Part shown: positions 16,734 to 58,776 of the stretch, piece by piece
How the letters are laid out: each line of letters opens with the position of its first letter
Numbering within the stretch: the stretch's first letter is position 1
Origin: Anodontia alba
Taxonomy: Eukaryota; Mollusca; Bivalvia; Lucinida; Lucinidae
Assembly: GCA_964016985.1 (NCBI GenBank)
Contig: OZ024837.1
Span: 40,425,207-40,489,206 of the forward strand
Length of the DNA: 64,000 bases
Direction of reading: 5' to 3'
Notes under the pieces: generated by a model
The model's input: the letters and a program-made list of their open reading frames with translations, nothing else
The model's database searches: none
What the model was told of the DNA's origin: nothing
Translations under genes and position numbers: made by a program

Positions 16734-16886
16734 CTAATTTTTGTATATGATCGTATCAATTATATCAACTGATCCCTCAATTTTAGAATTATCGTTCATT
16801 TTGTTGATGTAGAGTGTGGGCTTGCTTTGCCATCCTTTTTTGTGAACCATAATTATCCTGTCACCAACTTTGCCATATACTAAATC
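16734..16886 (-). CDS. Gene A, distal alternative terminal exon (5b)
   Basis: Minus-strand exon following the acceptor CTTACAG at 16887-16893. Read in phase 0 it gives 50 residues and a TAG stop. Its peptide (VYGKVGDRIIMVHKKGW, SKPTLYIN, DTIIYKN) aligns end to end with the proximal terminal exon at 20801-20953, which has the same length of 153 nt. No upstream exons of its own are seen between it and 20801, so it most simply serves as an alternative last exon spliced from exon 4 (26181). The frame is intact over the whole exon. An AATAAA on the minus strand (TTTATT at 16375-16380) is a possible poly(A) signal. It could instead be a leftover from a lost gene copy. The family is not recognised. 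Confidence 0.72.
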   Translation of the reverse strand, partial: DLVYGKVGDRIIMVHKKGWQSKPTLYINKMNDNSKIEGSVDIIDTIIYKN

Positions 16887-16927
16887 CTGTAAGTATAATG
16901 CAAAAATAAAATTATCACATAGTAACC

Positions 16928-17206
16928 CATTACGAAAACACGCCTATACGAATATATTGGAAATTTCACCAACAAAAAACTCAAGATTTTTCCAATAAAA
17001 ATTCAGATATTTTTCACATTTCTGCTCAAAACATAGATTGTGGGTACTCGTTAGAACCGCCTCGCCGAGGCGGTTCTAACGGGTACCCACAATCTTTGTT
17101 TAGAGAAGAAATAATAAAAATAATGTATACCCCTGTAAACCCCAGTTTTACTATATAAAGGTGGGGTTTAAGGGGGTAAAAATTATATAGGTATGTTTTC
17201 GTGATG
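16928..17206 (+). mobile_element. HP-A MITE, intact, in gene A 3' region
   Basis: CATTACGAAAACACGCC to TATGTTTTCGTGATG. The hairpin is perfect except for one base. It sits 41 bp upstream of exon 5b's acceptor side. Confidence 0.92.
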
Positions 17207-17211
17207 CTAAA

Positions 17212-17500
17212 TTCCAAACATTCAGCATGAAATATCTTGCGATGTGGTTTGTCTGCAGGCATGCAAATGTGATAAATCAGTTATACTATGGTTCTGCGCA
17301 TAGTACATGCGCACGAACCATGGTATAAGTCTTAGTTATATCATTGTTCGTGCGCATGTATAATGCGATAATGCACGAGCGTGATCGAGTACGTACATGC
17401 ACGTACATGCACAGAACCATGGTATACCTGATTTACCAAATTTTAATGCATGTAGATCATCTACATCGCGAGATATTTCATGCTGAATATTGAGAATTTA
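17212..17500. mobile_element. Inverted-repeat element with inner hairpin
   Basis: CATTCAGCATGAAATATCTT pairs with the region of AGATATTTCATGCTGAAT. Inner arms have ACCATGGTATAA and TATACTATGGTTCTG and GTGCGCATG motifs. No ORF. Confidence 0.75.
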
Positions 17501-17826
17501 GACTACTATTTGATAACAAAGACTTAACCAATGGCTGTTCCATTGTCACTATGTAAATAAAACTGAAGTTAATTATTATACCATAACTGGACCATCGGAT
17601 ATTTTTCAGTTTTGAAACTTATACCATGTTTTATTTATAGAAATCAAAGGTGTACGTTAGAATGACTGTCAAACCAATACATCTTTTAGAGTGTTTCAGC
17701 TGTATCAGTGCACCTGACCTTTATCACTCTTTCGGCTATTTCCGCAGATGACAAATTGATGATAGTTTTCTAAATATACTGCTAAAAATGTAATAAATAA
17801 AAAATAATAAATTAAAAACAAATAAC

Positions 17827-17905
17827 TAAAAAAAAAAAACAAAAACAAACAAACAAAAAAAAAACAAAAAACAAACAAACAAACAAAAAAAAAAAATAAA
17901 TAAAT
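17827..17905. repeat. A-rich (AAAC)n-like tract
   Basis: Runs of A with interspersed C. The minus-strand Phe-rich ORF here is an artefact. Confidence 0.85.
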
Positions 17906-17989
17906 AGATATAACTATAATGTTGCCAAAAATAAAGGCCCATACATTGGTTAACACAGATAAATCATGTTATTGTCTCGATTTTGAGAA

Positions 17990-18110
17990 TACTGTAAATC
18001 ATATCATAGTTTGGTGACCTTTCACTGTCTGACACAAACTCGTCTCCGCCTCGTTTGGGGGCCAGACAGTGAAAGGTTACCAAACTATGGTATATTTTAC
18101 ATTATTACAT
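17990..18110. repeat. Hairpin (stem about 35 bp)
   Basis: GTTTGGTGACCTTTCACTGT and ACAGTGAAAGGTTACCAAAC are complementary, with outer ATCATA/TATGGT continuing the stem. Confidence 0.85.
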
Positions 18111-18377
18111 TTTCAGCAGTGATGTACTGAGATATGTCAGTGAATTATAATCTATAATCCACCGAGTGAATTATTTCATTTCGAACGTCTTGACGTTATA
18201 ATTGCTAGACGACGTTGCTGTCATTGTTGGTAACAACAATAATAATTGTTGACGTTTCGCGGAAAACTTAATATTATCATGGAAATCAGACTGTAATTTT
18301 CACGTCTAGATGGCATTTTTGAGGAAAGACCCGCAACATAAATAGAAAGTATGATTTTCTTGATACTCTAATTCTAC

Positions 18378-18625
18378 CATCACGAAAACATATCTATATG
18401 ATTTTGACCCCCTTCAACCCCACTTTTATATAGTAAAACTGGGGTTTACATGGGTATACATTATATTTTCTTATTTCTGCTCAAGGCGGTTCTAACGAGT
18501 ACCCACAATCTATGTTTTGAGCAGAAATATGAAAAATATCAGTTTTTTTTTTATCTGAAAAGTTTCAGTTTTAGAGGTGAAATTTTCTATACAGTGTATA
18601 TTTGAATGGGCGTGTTTTCGTAATG
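18378..18625 (-). mobile_element. HP-A MITE, left hairpin half deleted
   Basis: CATCACGAAAACATATC to GTGTTTTCGTAATG. The hairpin is reduced to AAGGCGGTTCTAACGAGTAC. Confidence 0.88.
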
Positions 18626-56439: not shown

Positions 56440-56683
56440 GGGCCCAGTTGTTCAAAGCTAACGACATCGTTAGTTAACGATTCGTTAAAATTTGCATCGA
56501 GTGATACGCAAATATGCTGAAATTTTTTGCTGAAAAAATATGAATAGCTTTTGCAGTGCAAAAGCTACTCACATTTTTTCAGCAAAAAATATCAGAATAT
56601 TGTGTATTAAATCTGCTAAAACAGTTAACGAAATGACCCTTAACGAGCTCGTTAAGCTAACGACGCTTTGAACAACCGGGCCC
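56440..56683. mobile_element. MITE J, copy 2
   Basis: GGGCCCAGTTGTTCAAAGC and GCTTTGAACAACCGGGCCC. Arms TTTTTTGCTGAAAAAATATG and its complement. Confidence 0.9.
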
Positions 56684-56744
56684 AGTACAGTAAGAGGTTT
56701 AGGTGTCCGAATACTTTGAGTGAATATGGTATGGTGTAAAAGCA

Positions 56745-57475
56745 TATACTCACAAGTCAGTCTATATATACACAAGTATATCAGCATATATACACGAGTA
56801 TATATACAAGTATTGCGGCATATATACACAAGGAAATACACAAATATATCGGCAAATGTGCACACATATTTACGAGTCGGTCTCTCTCTCTCTCTCTCTC
56901 TCTCTCTCTCTCTCTCTCTCTCTCTCTCTCTCTATATATATATATATATATATATATATATATATATATATACACACACAAGTATATTAGCATATATACA
57001 CAAGTATATCGGAATCTATACTTAAATATATGCACAAATATATCAGCATACACAATTATATTACAAGTATATACAAAAGTATATTAGCATATATGCACAA
57101 GTATATCGGAATATATATACTATTATATATACAAGTATATCGACATATATACTAAATCATATTCACAAGTATATGCACAAGTATAACGGCATATATACAC
57201 AAGTAAATTCGCAATAATATACACAAGTATATCAACATATATACACAAGTATATACAAAAGTATATCGGCATATATACACAAATAAATTCACAAGTATAT
57301 ATAAAAGTATATCGGCATATATTCACAAGTATATACATAGGTATATCGGAATATATACACAAGCATACACACAGGTATATCGGCATATATACACAAGTAT
57401 ATACACAAGTTTATACATTAGTAACCGGCATATATGCGCAAGTATATATACACACGTTAATCAGCATATAAACAC
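56745..57475. repeat. Degenerate minisatellite (CACAAGTATATCGGCATATA)
   Basis: Repeats of about 22-33 bp built from CACAAGTATAT and CGGCATATATA. Interrupted by (CT)n and (TA)n. The Tyr/Ile-rich ORFs here are artefacts. Confidence 0.88.
56880..56971. repeat. Compound (CT)n(TA)n microsatellite
   Basis: About 26 CT units, then about 20 TA units. Confidence 0.95.
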
Positions 57476-57588
57476 GTGTATAATCACAAGTCGATTTGTG
57501 CAAACGAGCGAGCAAGCCAGCCACGGGTTGTTTTCTCAGGCTAACAAAGTTGTATTGCTTTAAAACTTCATATGAACCGCATTGAGGG

Positions 57589-57872
57589 GTGGTCGGGTGG
57601 TGCGAAGGTGCTGTGTATCTTACATCACTGGGGCGTCCAACTGATATTGGCTTACAGTTGGGCAAGGCCTGCTATCCTTGTAGTGGGTAAAGGTAGAGGG
57701 GGGATGTTTTTATTTCTTCTGTTTCTTCACTTTCATTCCTGTTCCTCTTTCTTCCCTGTCCCTCTCTTTCATCTCCTCTACTCTCTCTTCTATCTCTTTT
57801 CTCCCTTTCTCTGGGAGACGACACAAAATGACCCTCAAGGGTTGACGTGTCGTTAAACCCCAACACAATCAA
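57589..57872 (+). mobile_element. SINE-like element with conserved 3' tail
   Basis: GGGCGTCCAACTGATATTGG, a CT-rich middle, then AAGGGTTGACGTGTCGTTAA and CCCCAACACAA. The tail parallels that of S1 (GTAAAACCTCAACACAA). Confidence 0.55.
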
Positions 57873-57884
57873 TGAACCGCATTG

Positions 57885-57985
57885 ACAGAAAACGTACCTT
57901 CGGACATGTGCGCCCAGCGAAGATTCATATCAGCCTGCGCTTTCGCGCAGTCTGATCAGAATCTTCACTTGGCGCATTATGGATA
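57885..57985. repeat. Hairpin D repeat
   Basis: AACGTACCTTCGGACATGTG, GAAGATTCATATCAGCCTGC and GCGCAGTCTGATCAGAATC. Confidence 0.75.
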
Positions 57986-58308
57986 TATTTGCTCCTAAAG
58001 GGAGCAAACACTTTTTTTTTTCTTTTAAAGTCGACGTTTTTTCAGAAGGGCAGCAACTATTTTTGAAAGAGTTGTCTTCAATGAATATGTATCCATTACT
58101 TTTAAGATAAATACAAACCTGTCCTAAAGGCCACCTGTATTAAGCAATCACCTGCTTTTAAAGGCCACTATTTCAGGTCCAATTTAAAGCAAAGAAGTGG
58201 AACTCTACCTGTATTAAGCAAGCACTTGTCTTAAGGAACCACTTTTAGCTTTCCAATAGGTGCTTGCTTAACACAGGTTTGACTGTATAGTTTTATTACG
58301 AACAAATG

Positions 58309-58500
58309 AGCCGGGACACAGCATTCCCTGCAAGATTGAATGTGCGCCCAGCGATGACTCAGATCAGCCTGCGCATCCGCGCAGTCTGATCTGAGTATTC
58401 GCAGGGCACTGTGGATAGCCAAGGATCCAGGAAAGATTCTGAAGCCTCCGCGGATAAAAGGGCTATTCTGAGTCTTCGCTTTGAGCATATGCATACTGCC
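58309..58500. repeat. Hairpin D repeat, full
   Basis: AGCCGGGACACAGCATTCCC end, then GCGCATCCGCGCAGTCTGAT stem, then a decayed second module. Confidence 0.75.
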
Positions 58501-58628
58501 TATGAAGAGTCTCAATAAAACCGAGACTATCATTTTCTAATCCGTAGTGTGACCTTTGTTTCCAAAGGCAGTCTTTTGGCGTTTATTGTAGGAAGTTCTG
58601 TGTCCCGGATGAAATGTTTTCAATTTAC

Positions 58629-58776
58629 CTTTGACAGCGTTCCCAATGTCATGCTTCTGACGTGTCCCGGACTCTTCTGTCTTGTCATGATGAGACTGAA
58701 CTTGCAGATCAGTTAGGGTTAGTGCCACACCGCATAACGTCAGTATAAGAGCAAAGGTCCGAACAGAAATAATCAT
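58629..58776 (-). CDS. Gene B, exon 1 (start codon and signal peptide)
   Basis: ATG at 58776-58774, donor GTAAATTG (58628-58621). 148 nt, leaving one base. It begins MIISVRTFALILTLCGVALT, a clear signal peptide, followed by a polar His/Lys/Glu-rich propeptide (QSHHDKTEESGTRQKHD) and VK before the junction, as in gene A. An acceptor TTTTCTTATCTTATAG five bases before the ATG is shared with gene A and implies a 5' UTR exon. The open frame runs past the donor, but only the spliced form matches gene A. Confidence 0.82.

Follow-up and report, generated by a model that had tools for sequence, protein, structure and literature searches.

The 64,000-nucleotide (nt) stretch of DNA from the lucinid clam Anodontia alba analyzed here (contig OZ024837.1, positions 40,425,207 to 40,489,206 of the forward strand), called the window below, carries two intron-split genes, which we term A and B. 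Both lie on the minus strand, with gene B running from 58776 to 48855 and gene A from 35233 to 16734. Each is predicted to encode a small secreted precursor with a furin-type cleavage site, and the part of the protein behind that site shows strong profile similarity to a domain, so far unnamed, from the C-terminus of bacterial polymorphic toxins.

Gene models in the window

We assembled gene A from exons A1, A3, A4 and a terminal exon, either A5 or A5b, and gene B from exons B1, B3, B4 and B5 (Table 1). AG and GT are present at every internal exon border of both genes, and the two share their phases: the end of exon 1 is in phase 1, exons 3 and 4 run 1-1 and 1-0, respectively, and exon 5 opens in phase 0 and closes with the stop codon. 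The spliced products measure 158 amino acids (aa) for A, with A5 or A5b alike, and 168 aa for B. Throughout the window, both strands included, no open phase-1 exon of 45 nt other than A3 scores at least 2 at both of its sites, and a scan of 22.5 kb for A1, at thresholds of our own choosing, passed one candidate. The splice sites of B3 are weaker (1.5 and 1.2), and this exon emerged only under relaxed thresholds. A5b is 54% identical to A5, with length, acceptor and stop alike, and lies somewhat nearer to the bacterial motif discussed below (R..KPTID).

An initial annotation of this DNA had proposed two split genes for secreted products with a furin-type site, which the sequence supports. The ends that it gave, 16734 and 58776, are the stop codon of A5 and the ATG of B1 on the minus strand; the exon lengths (45/45 nt for A3/B3, 164/167 for A4/B4 and 153/147 for A5/B5) and matching phases are borne out; and the motifs AKSLxNGA, QALxDF and VGDRxI are present. 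From the spliced products we could likewise read a signal-peptide-like start and, after RRKR in A and KPRKR in B, mature parts of 110 and 109 residues, respectively. Five exons had been claimed for gene A: A1, A3, A4 and A5 were recovered, and A2, which was not looked for further, is unconfirmed, with A1 and A3 joining in frame without it. The second terminal exon A5b and the decayed copy of B5 are additions to that annotation. The argument that chance could hardly produce such a pair gains from the uniqueness of A3, the single A1 candidate, the ranking of window exons by a bacterial profile, and the recurrence of exon borders and the furin exon across the genome, and loses from the weak sites of B3. 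We consider A and B to be almost certainly real genes.

A near-identical stretch, TTTTCTTATCTTA, precedes both start codons (35234-35260 and 58777-58801, minus strand) and is perhaps the acceptor of a common 5' untranslated exon. The reading frame of a decayed copy of B5 seems to enter a dispersed repeat. Another dispersed repeat lies upstream of A5, and a reverse transcriptase and two tandem arrays stand elsewhere in the window (Table 1).

Table 1. Exons of genes A and B and other features of the window.
Feature	Position	Strand	Description	Basis
A1, gene A exon 1	35119..35233	-	115 nt, ATG, signal-peptide-like, end phase 1	Sole candidate passing the scan; donor score 7.0
A3, gene A exon 3	29977..30021	-	45 nt, phase 1-1, encodes GSGEKRRKRSTKIV, furin-type site	Splice-site scan and recurrence in other copies
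A4, gene A exon 4	26181..26344	-	164 nt, phase 1-0, N-terminal half of the probable toxin-derived domain	Bacterial profile rank 1 in window, E 5.6e-6
A5b, gene A second terminal exon	20801..20953	-	153 nt, stop, C-terminal half of the domain	Bacterial profile rank 3 in window, E 0.36
A5, gene A terminal exon	16734..16886	-	153 nt, stop	Bacterial profile rank 4 in window, E 1.7
B1, gene B exon 1	58629..58776	-	148 nt, ATG, signal-peptide-like, end phase 1	
B3, gene B exon 3	55341..55385	-	45 nt, phase 1-1, encodes YPGRKPRKRAAQIV, furin-type site	Scan at lowered thresholds; acceptor score 1.5, donor score 1.2; frame closes
B4, gene B exon 4	51674..51840	-	167 nt, phase 1-0, N-terminal half of the domain	Bacterial profile rank 2 in window, E 4.3e-4
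B5, gene B terminal exon	48855..49001	-	147 nt, stop	tblastn relation to A5, E 0.033; no bacterial-profile match
Decayed copy of B5	50350..50513	-	Approximate borders, without AG acceptor	tblastn E 0.006
Dispersed repeat	16928-17206		~40 nt upstream of exon A5	Dozens of genome copies listed, mostly 94-97% identical
Reverse transcriptase (RVT_1)	1406-2051	-	Two pieces in overlapping frames	
Tandem array	3036-4763		Units of ~108 bases	
Tandem array	8020-8999		Units of 28/94 bases	

Precursors and mature proteins

Both products open with a hydrophobic, signal-peptide-like segment and carry an R-x-K/R-R site before the mature part, an arrangement that, by sequence alone, places them among furin-processed secreted pro-proteins. 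In a scan covering ~1.5 kb upstream of each of 59 exon-4 loci from across the genome, an exon of 42-51 nt encoding a furin-type site in the right phase was present at seven, compared to none of the 59 on the control strand. The exon-4 donor has phase 0 in 40 of 42 copies. The mature proteins have a computed net charge of +5 to +8, with no cysteines in A and three in B, and the amphipathicity of their N-terminal 18-mers exceeds that of shuffled sequences (P 0.042 for A and 0.026 for B). Overall, secretion of the precursors and their release by a furin-type protease are very likely, as predicted from these motifs.

Relationship to a bacterial toxin domain

Pfam, NCBIfam, PHROGs and PADLOC gave the mature parts nothing better than E 0.024, and we rejected membership in an ordinary known family; a PDB sequence search with B returned no match at E ≤ 10. 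The initial annotation had been unable to name the family. Profile comparison groups the mature part with a bacterial polymorphic-toxin domain that is C-terminal and has no name, and we regard the predicted homology as near certain. When the three window products were aligned with 29 bacterial domains in hhalign, they reached a probability of 98 and a score of 72.9 over 86 columns, compared to 17.0 for the best of 100 column shuffles. Ten clam domains aligned with the same 29 scored 97.8, with the best of 200 column shuffles at 20.1. The alignments span 76-86 columns, and profile similarity places the clam sequences within the bacterial domain. Exon 4 on its own scores 52.7 against the bacterial domains.

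The relationship can also be recovered in the opposite direction. Run over all open reading frames (ORFs) of at least 20 aa in the window, the bacterial profile ranks A4, B4, A5b and A5 first to fourth. A single bacterial sequence, the L020 domain, gave 23 matches at E ≤ 10 in the whole clam genome (best 0.0245), all 23 of which coincide by position with exon-4 places confirmed by a clam profile. Among 5060 ORFs of family loci, a set that is not a random sample because the loci were fetched with clam or bacterial queries, the bacterial profile retrieved 53 of 59 clam exon-4 ORFs and nothing else at E ≤ 1e-3; at E ≤ 10 it retrieved all 59 and seven others, at least five of them exon-5 ORFs. A core of the type K-x-G-(x4)-A-xx-D-F occurs in 58 of the 59 clam exon-4 peptides, with its K and G present in all 59, and in 22 of 29 bacterial rows when V is also allowed for A.

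In A and B the bacterial signature is partly eroded. It consists of an invariant S-x-DGRPT-x-E and a near-invariant terminal R, and A and B retain from it only P-T/S and hydrophobic residues. Across 12 clam exon-5 peptides, E79 is kept in five and R75 in two; the R before the final Y (the near-invariant R90) is kept in none, its place being taken by a hydrophobic residue in ten. Among other clam copies, L213 keeps R, P, T and E, and both L217 and L204 keep P, T and E.

The bacterial domain and its genomic context

We gathered the bacterial set with a DNA pattern for DGRPTLEI, taking a resemblance to RHS/CDI toxin tips as the starting idea. The pattern matched 103 stretches in bacterial genomes (genome_contigs) and five in viral_contigs. 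From these 108 stretches, 49 passed a crude filter, and a second filter, with eight loci also removed manually, reduced these to 37 domains. Truncation was the reason for dropping some others that end in the same tail, L022, L032, L056, L084, L096 and L110 among them. The alignment holds 29 of the 37, the eight left out being mostly near-copies. A viral source for the clam domain was considered and rejected: the five viral stretches held one carrier (L014), the 13 stretches found with a second pattern were without the domain, and 123 viral matches to patterns from the three clam rows included no relative.

In the carriers examined, the bacterial domain is C-terminal, following RHS repeats (L020, L035), haemagglutinin repeats with PT-VENN (L031), LXG with PT-TG (L101), PT-TG (L059), MafB (L100) or PT-VENN (L070). 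Matches were weak for carriers L060 (phage baseplate) and L095 (YD-shell), and L106 had none. In all 37 cases an ORF of at least 60 aa (complete in 35) starts -29 to +38 nt from the domain end, a figure that stands without a chance control and for which starts were sought from -30 to +150 nt. An adjoining small ORF is the usual layout of a polymorphic toxin and its immunity gene. Six members of the bacterial domain had no Pfam or NCBIfam match at cut-off, and six downstream ORFs (L020, L035, L060, L095, L100 and L106) matched no Pfam family, so toxin domain and downstream ORF alike may represent families, of toxins and of immunity proteins, that have yet to be described. A structure model of the bacterial domain reached a mean pLDDT (predicted local distance difference test) of 95.4. 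We discarded the PDB matches of the bacterial profile as artefacts, the best being a designed PPR protein with a summed E of 1.9e-6 and no single repeat significant.

A large clam gene family

We searched the clam genome (1.86 Gb in 317 contigs, the window being G000:C18:40425207-40489206) with B, which gave 32 matches (E ≤ 10), with A in its A5b form, which gave 141 (E ≤ 10), and with the exon of one paralog, which gave 96 (E ≤ 1). Pooled at E ≤ 1, with exon-5 places left out, the searches define ~132 exon-4 places; the firm count is 59, the number of different intact exon-4 peptides that the clam profile confirmed in the loci examined. Contig C18, which makes up 2.8% of the genome, holds 48 of the ~132 places, and 69 places sit in clusters of three or more. 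On C18, one cluster of 13 places lies at 26.16-26.64 Mb, and another of eight surrounds the window at 40.45-40.71 Mb (~263 kb). The matches are spread over contigs with numbers up to C19, and an in-frame stop interrupts six of the 141 matches obtained with A. What had been described as a tandem pair is instead two of the eight places in this ~263-kb cluster, and in a tree B pairs with a neighbor at C18:40.50 Mb, not with A. The same tree puts ten clam domains on one side of a branch with support of 100/100.

Between A4 and B4, the nonsynonymous rate (dN) is 0.49 and the synonymous rate (dS) 1.81, a ratio of ~0.27 from one pair only and with dS near saturation; the initial annotation had named a ratio near 1 as the sign that would tell against it. 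This supports constraint on exon 4. Between A5 and A5b, dN is 0.30 and dS 0.24, a ratio of ~1.3 that is indistinguishable from 1, the proportion of nonsynonymous differences equalling or exceeding that of synonymous ones (pN ≥ pS) in 77% of bootstraps. The likeness of A5 and A5b reaches no further than 27 nt before the exon and 6 nt beyond it (78% over 186 nt). The decayed copy of B5 suggests that last exons may be copied repeatedly in the clam family.

Proposed role and alternative explanations

The explanation we favor, with somewhat better than even confidence, is that A and B belong to a large and partly clustered family of clam genes whose core is the C-terminal domain of a bacterial polymorphic toxin, domesticated for furin-released, extracellular defense or recognition. 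A signal peptide and a short propeptide would precede the domain, and an intron would split it, with exon 4 supplying the front half and exon 5 the back half. The precursor, as read from its sequence, would enter the secretory pathway, and a furin-type protease would cut after RRKR or KPRKR, which has its private 45-nt exon; the motif and its recurrence in other copies both point to this step. Cleavage would free a basic protein of ~110 residues, predicted to comprise an amphipathic N-terminal helix and a small alpha+beta domain with the fold of the bacterial model. This protein may then act outside the cell in host defense or recognition and no longer as the original toxin, since A and B retain little of the bacterial signature and copies vary in how much of it they keep. 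The copies themselves are evident in the genome, and duplication, whether of an entire gene or of its last exon, may serve to diversify the repertoire. Defense or recognition is our tentative first choice among possible roles, by analogy with expanded mollusc families such as the biomphalysins.

A bolder version of this model, which we think improbable, would have one toxin cassette give rise to perhaps more than 100 secreted, furin-released proteins, each joining a conserved exon 4 to exchangeable, fast-changing back halves drawn from duplicated terminal exons such as A5 and A5b. If true, an invertebrate immune repertoire would have arrived anew, by way of alternative last exons, at the tip-swapping of bacterial polymorphic toxins.

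Several points weigh against the domesticated-toxin explanation. Exon 5 alone is weakly tied to the bacterial domains (score 21.4), and the bacterial profile found no match to exon B5 among the window ORFs. DNA patterns from the clam rows found no relative among 494 pattern matches in the bacterial genome_contigs, nor did patterns from three clam rows among 123 in viral_contigs. Weak matches among the pooled exon-4 places may be due to chance. The signal peptides were called by eye and with a simple hydrophobicity score, and the amphipathic helix is modest, with 17 of 40 exon-4 peptides tested reaching P < 0.05. The unity of the bacterial rows in the tree is partly built in because they were picked by the DGRPTLEI motif, and with rows chosen in this way the tree tests neither the direction nor the date of transfer. 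Finally, present data would look no different for a family of reproductive proteins or extracellular signals.

That last alternative, in which a toxin-derived fold is kept as the scaffold of secreted signaling or reproductive ligands for cell recognition or fertilization, much as in the teneurin C-terminus, is unlikely but the most probable of the alternatives. It would account for the eroded, variable signature (E79 in 5/12 exon-5 peptides, R75 in 2/12, and R before the final Y in 0/12) and for a last exon that changes fast (A5/A5b ~1.3, indistinguishable from 1), and teneurin C-terminal domains are the best structural neighbors of the bacterial domain. However, dozens of clustered copies would be unusual for a signaling ligand, and the clam teneurin shows no sequence relation to the family. 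Rather less likely still, some copies may remain active toxin domains, for example ribonucleases, released extracellularly against microbes or parasites. The several signature residues kept in L213, L217 and L204 would fit such enzymes, and a furin-dependent pro-form could hold a toxic domain latent; against this, the near-invariant R90 is absent from all 12 clam exon-5 peptides, and most of the signature is gone in A and B.

The two remaining alternatives fare much worse. Pseudogenes or transposon-carried copies without function, suggested by the many and in part dispersed copies and by the dead duplicate of B5, are very improbable given the few stops (6/141), the conserved splice borders, the constraint on exon 4, and the confinement of A5/A5b likeness to the exon with 27 nt before it and 6 nt after. 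Convergence or chance likeness in an ordinary animal secreted family is scarcely credible: identity is low (26-34% over aligned columns) and a single bacterial sequence reaches a best E of only 0.0245 in the genome, but the shuffle controls, the specificity of the bacterial profile, the same order of the two halves, and a core motif found in 58/59 clam and 22/29 bacterial rows (V allowed for A) all argue against it.

If the domesticated-toxin explanation is correct, an unnamed toxin domain would have become a large secreted animal family that devotes a separate exon to its cleavage site. Animals are already known to reuse polymorphic-toxin domains, with at least 14 toxin domains shared with bacterial warfare systems by the count in PMC3482391. 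We found no description of the clam family in the accessible parts of the open-access literature, subscription papers being mostly outside this scope. The family provides a concrete, testable set of candidate clam defense proteins and may explain part of the uncharacterized expanded gene groups reported for the hard clam (PMC8905726), and its bacterial counterpart is a toxin family worth naming.

Comparison with known systems

The clam family shares with the C-terminal domains of bacterial polymorphic toxins a common order of motifs: Y-K-GG-A-DF, VG-R-V, PT-x-E/I and I-x-Y. It differs from those toxins in being a stand-alone secreted pro-protein, split by introns, with an extra N-terminal helix and no large delivery protein; the clam models, at 158-168 aa, do not form the C-terminus of such a protein. 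In A and B, the S-x-DGR signature and terminal R of the bacterial domain are gone.

Teneurin C-terminal domains are the closest structural neighbors of the bacterial domain. Kinship with teneurins at the sequence level was rejected, as the clam teneurin scores of 13.1 and 10.5 lie inside 200 shuffles reaching 24.4 and 20.9. The fold of the teneurin antibiotic-binding-like domain (ABD) may be akin to that of the bacterial toxin domain, a kinship that, if real, would point to a possible origin of the teneurin ABD. The only Tox-GHH match in the genome, L219 (G000:C6:55250745-55250978), is a teneurin terminal exon.

The big defensins of bivalves are secreted proteins with a propeptide, a hydrophobic N-terminal part, and a second domain on another exon. 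They share this layout with the predicted clam proteins, and differ from them in sequence: mature A has 0 cysteines and mature B three, and Pfam gives no defensin match. Nor did mature A or mature B have an aerolysin match in Pfam above the cut-off. The biomphalysins of Biomphalaria glabrata arose from an aerolysin-type bacterial toxin gene that was acquired, duplicated and domesticated to give 23 genes (PMC8047071). In outline they resemble the clam family, which would likewise be an acquired bacterial toxin that was duplicated, domesticated and diversified; the clam family differs in its toxin, its larger number of copies, and its furin-type exon.

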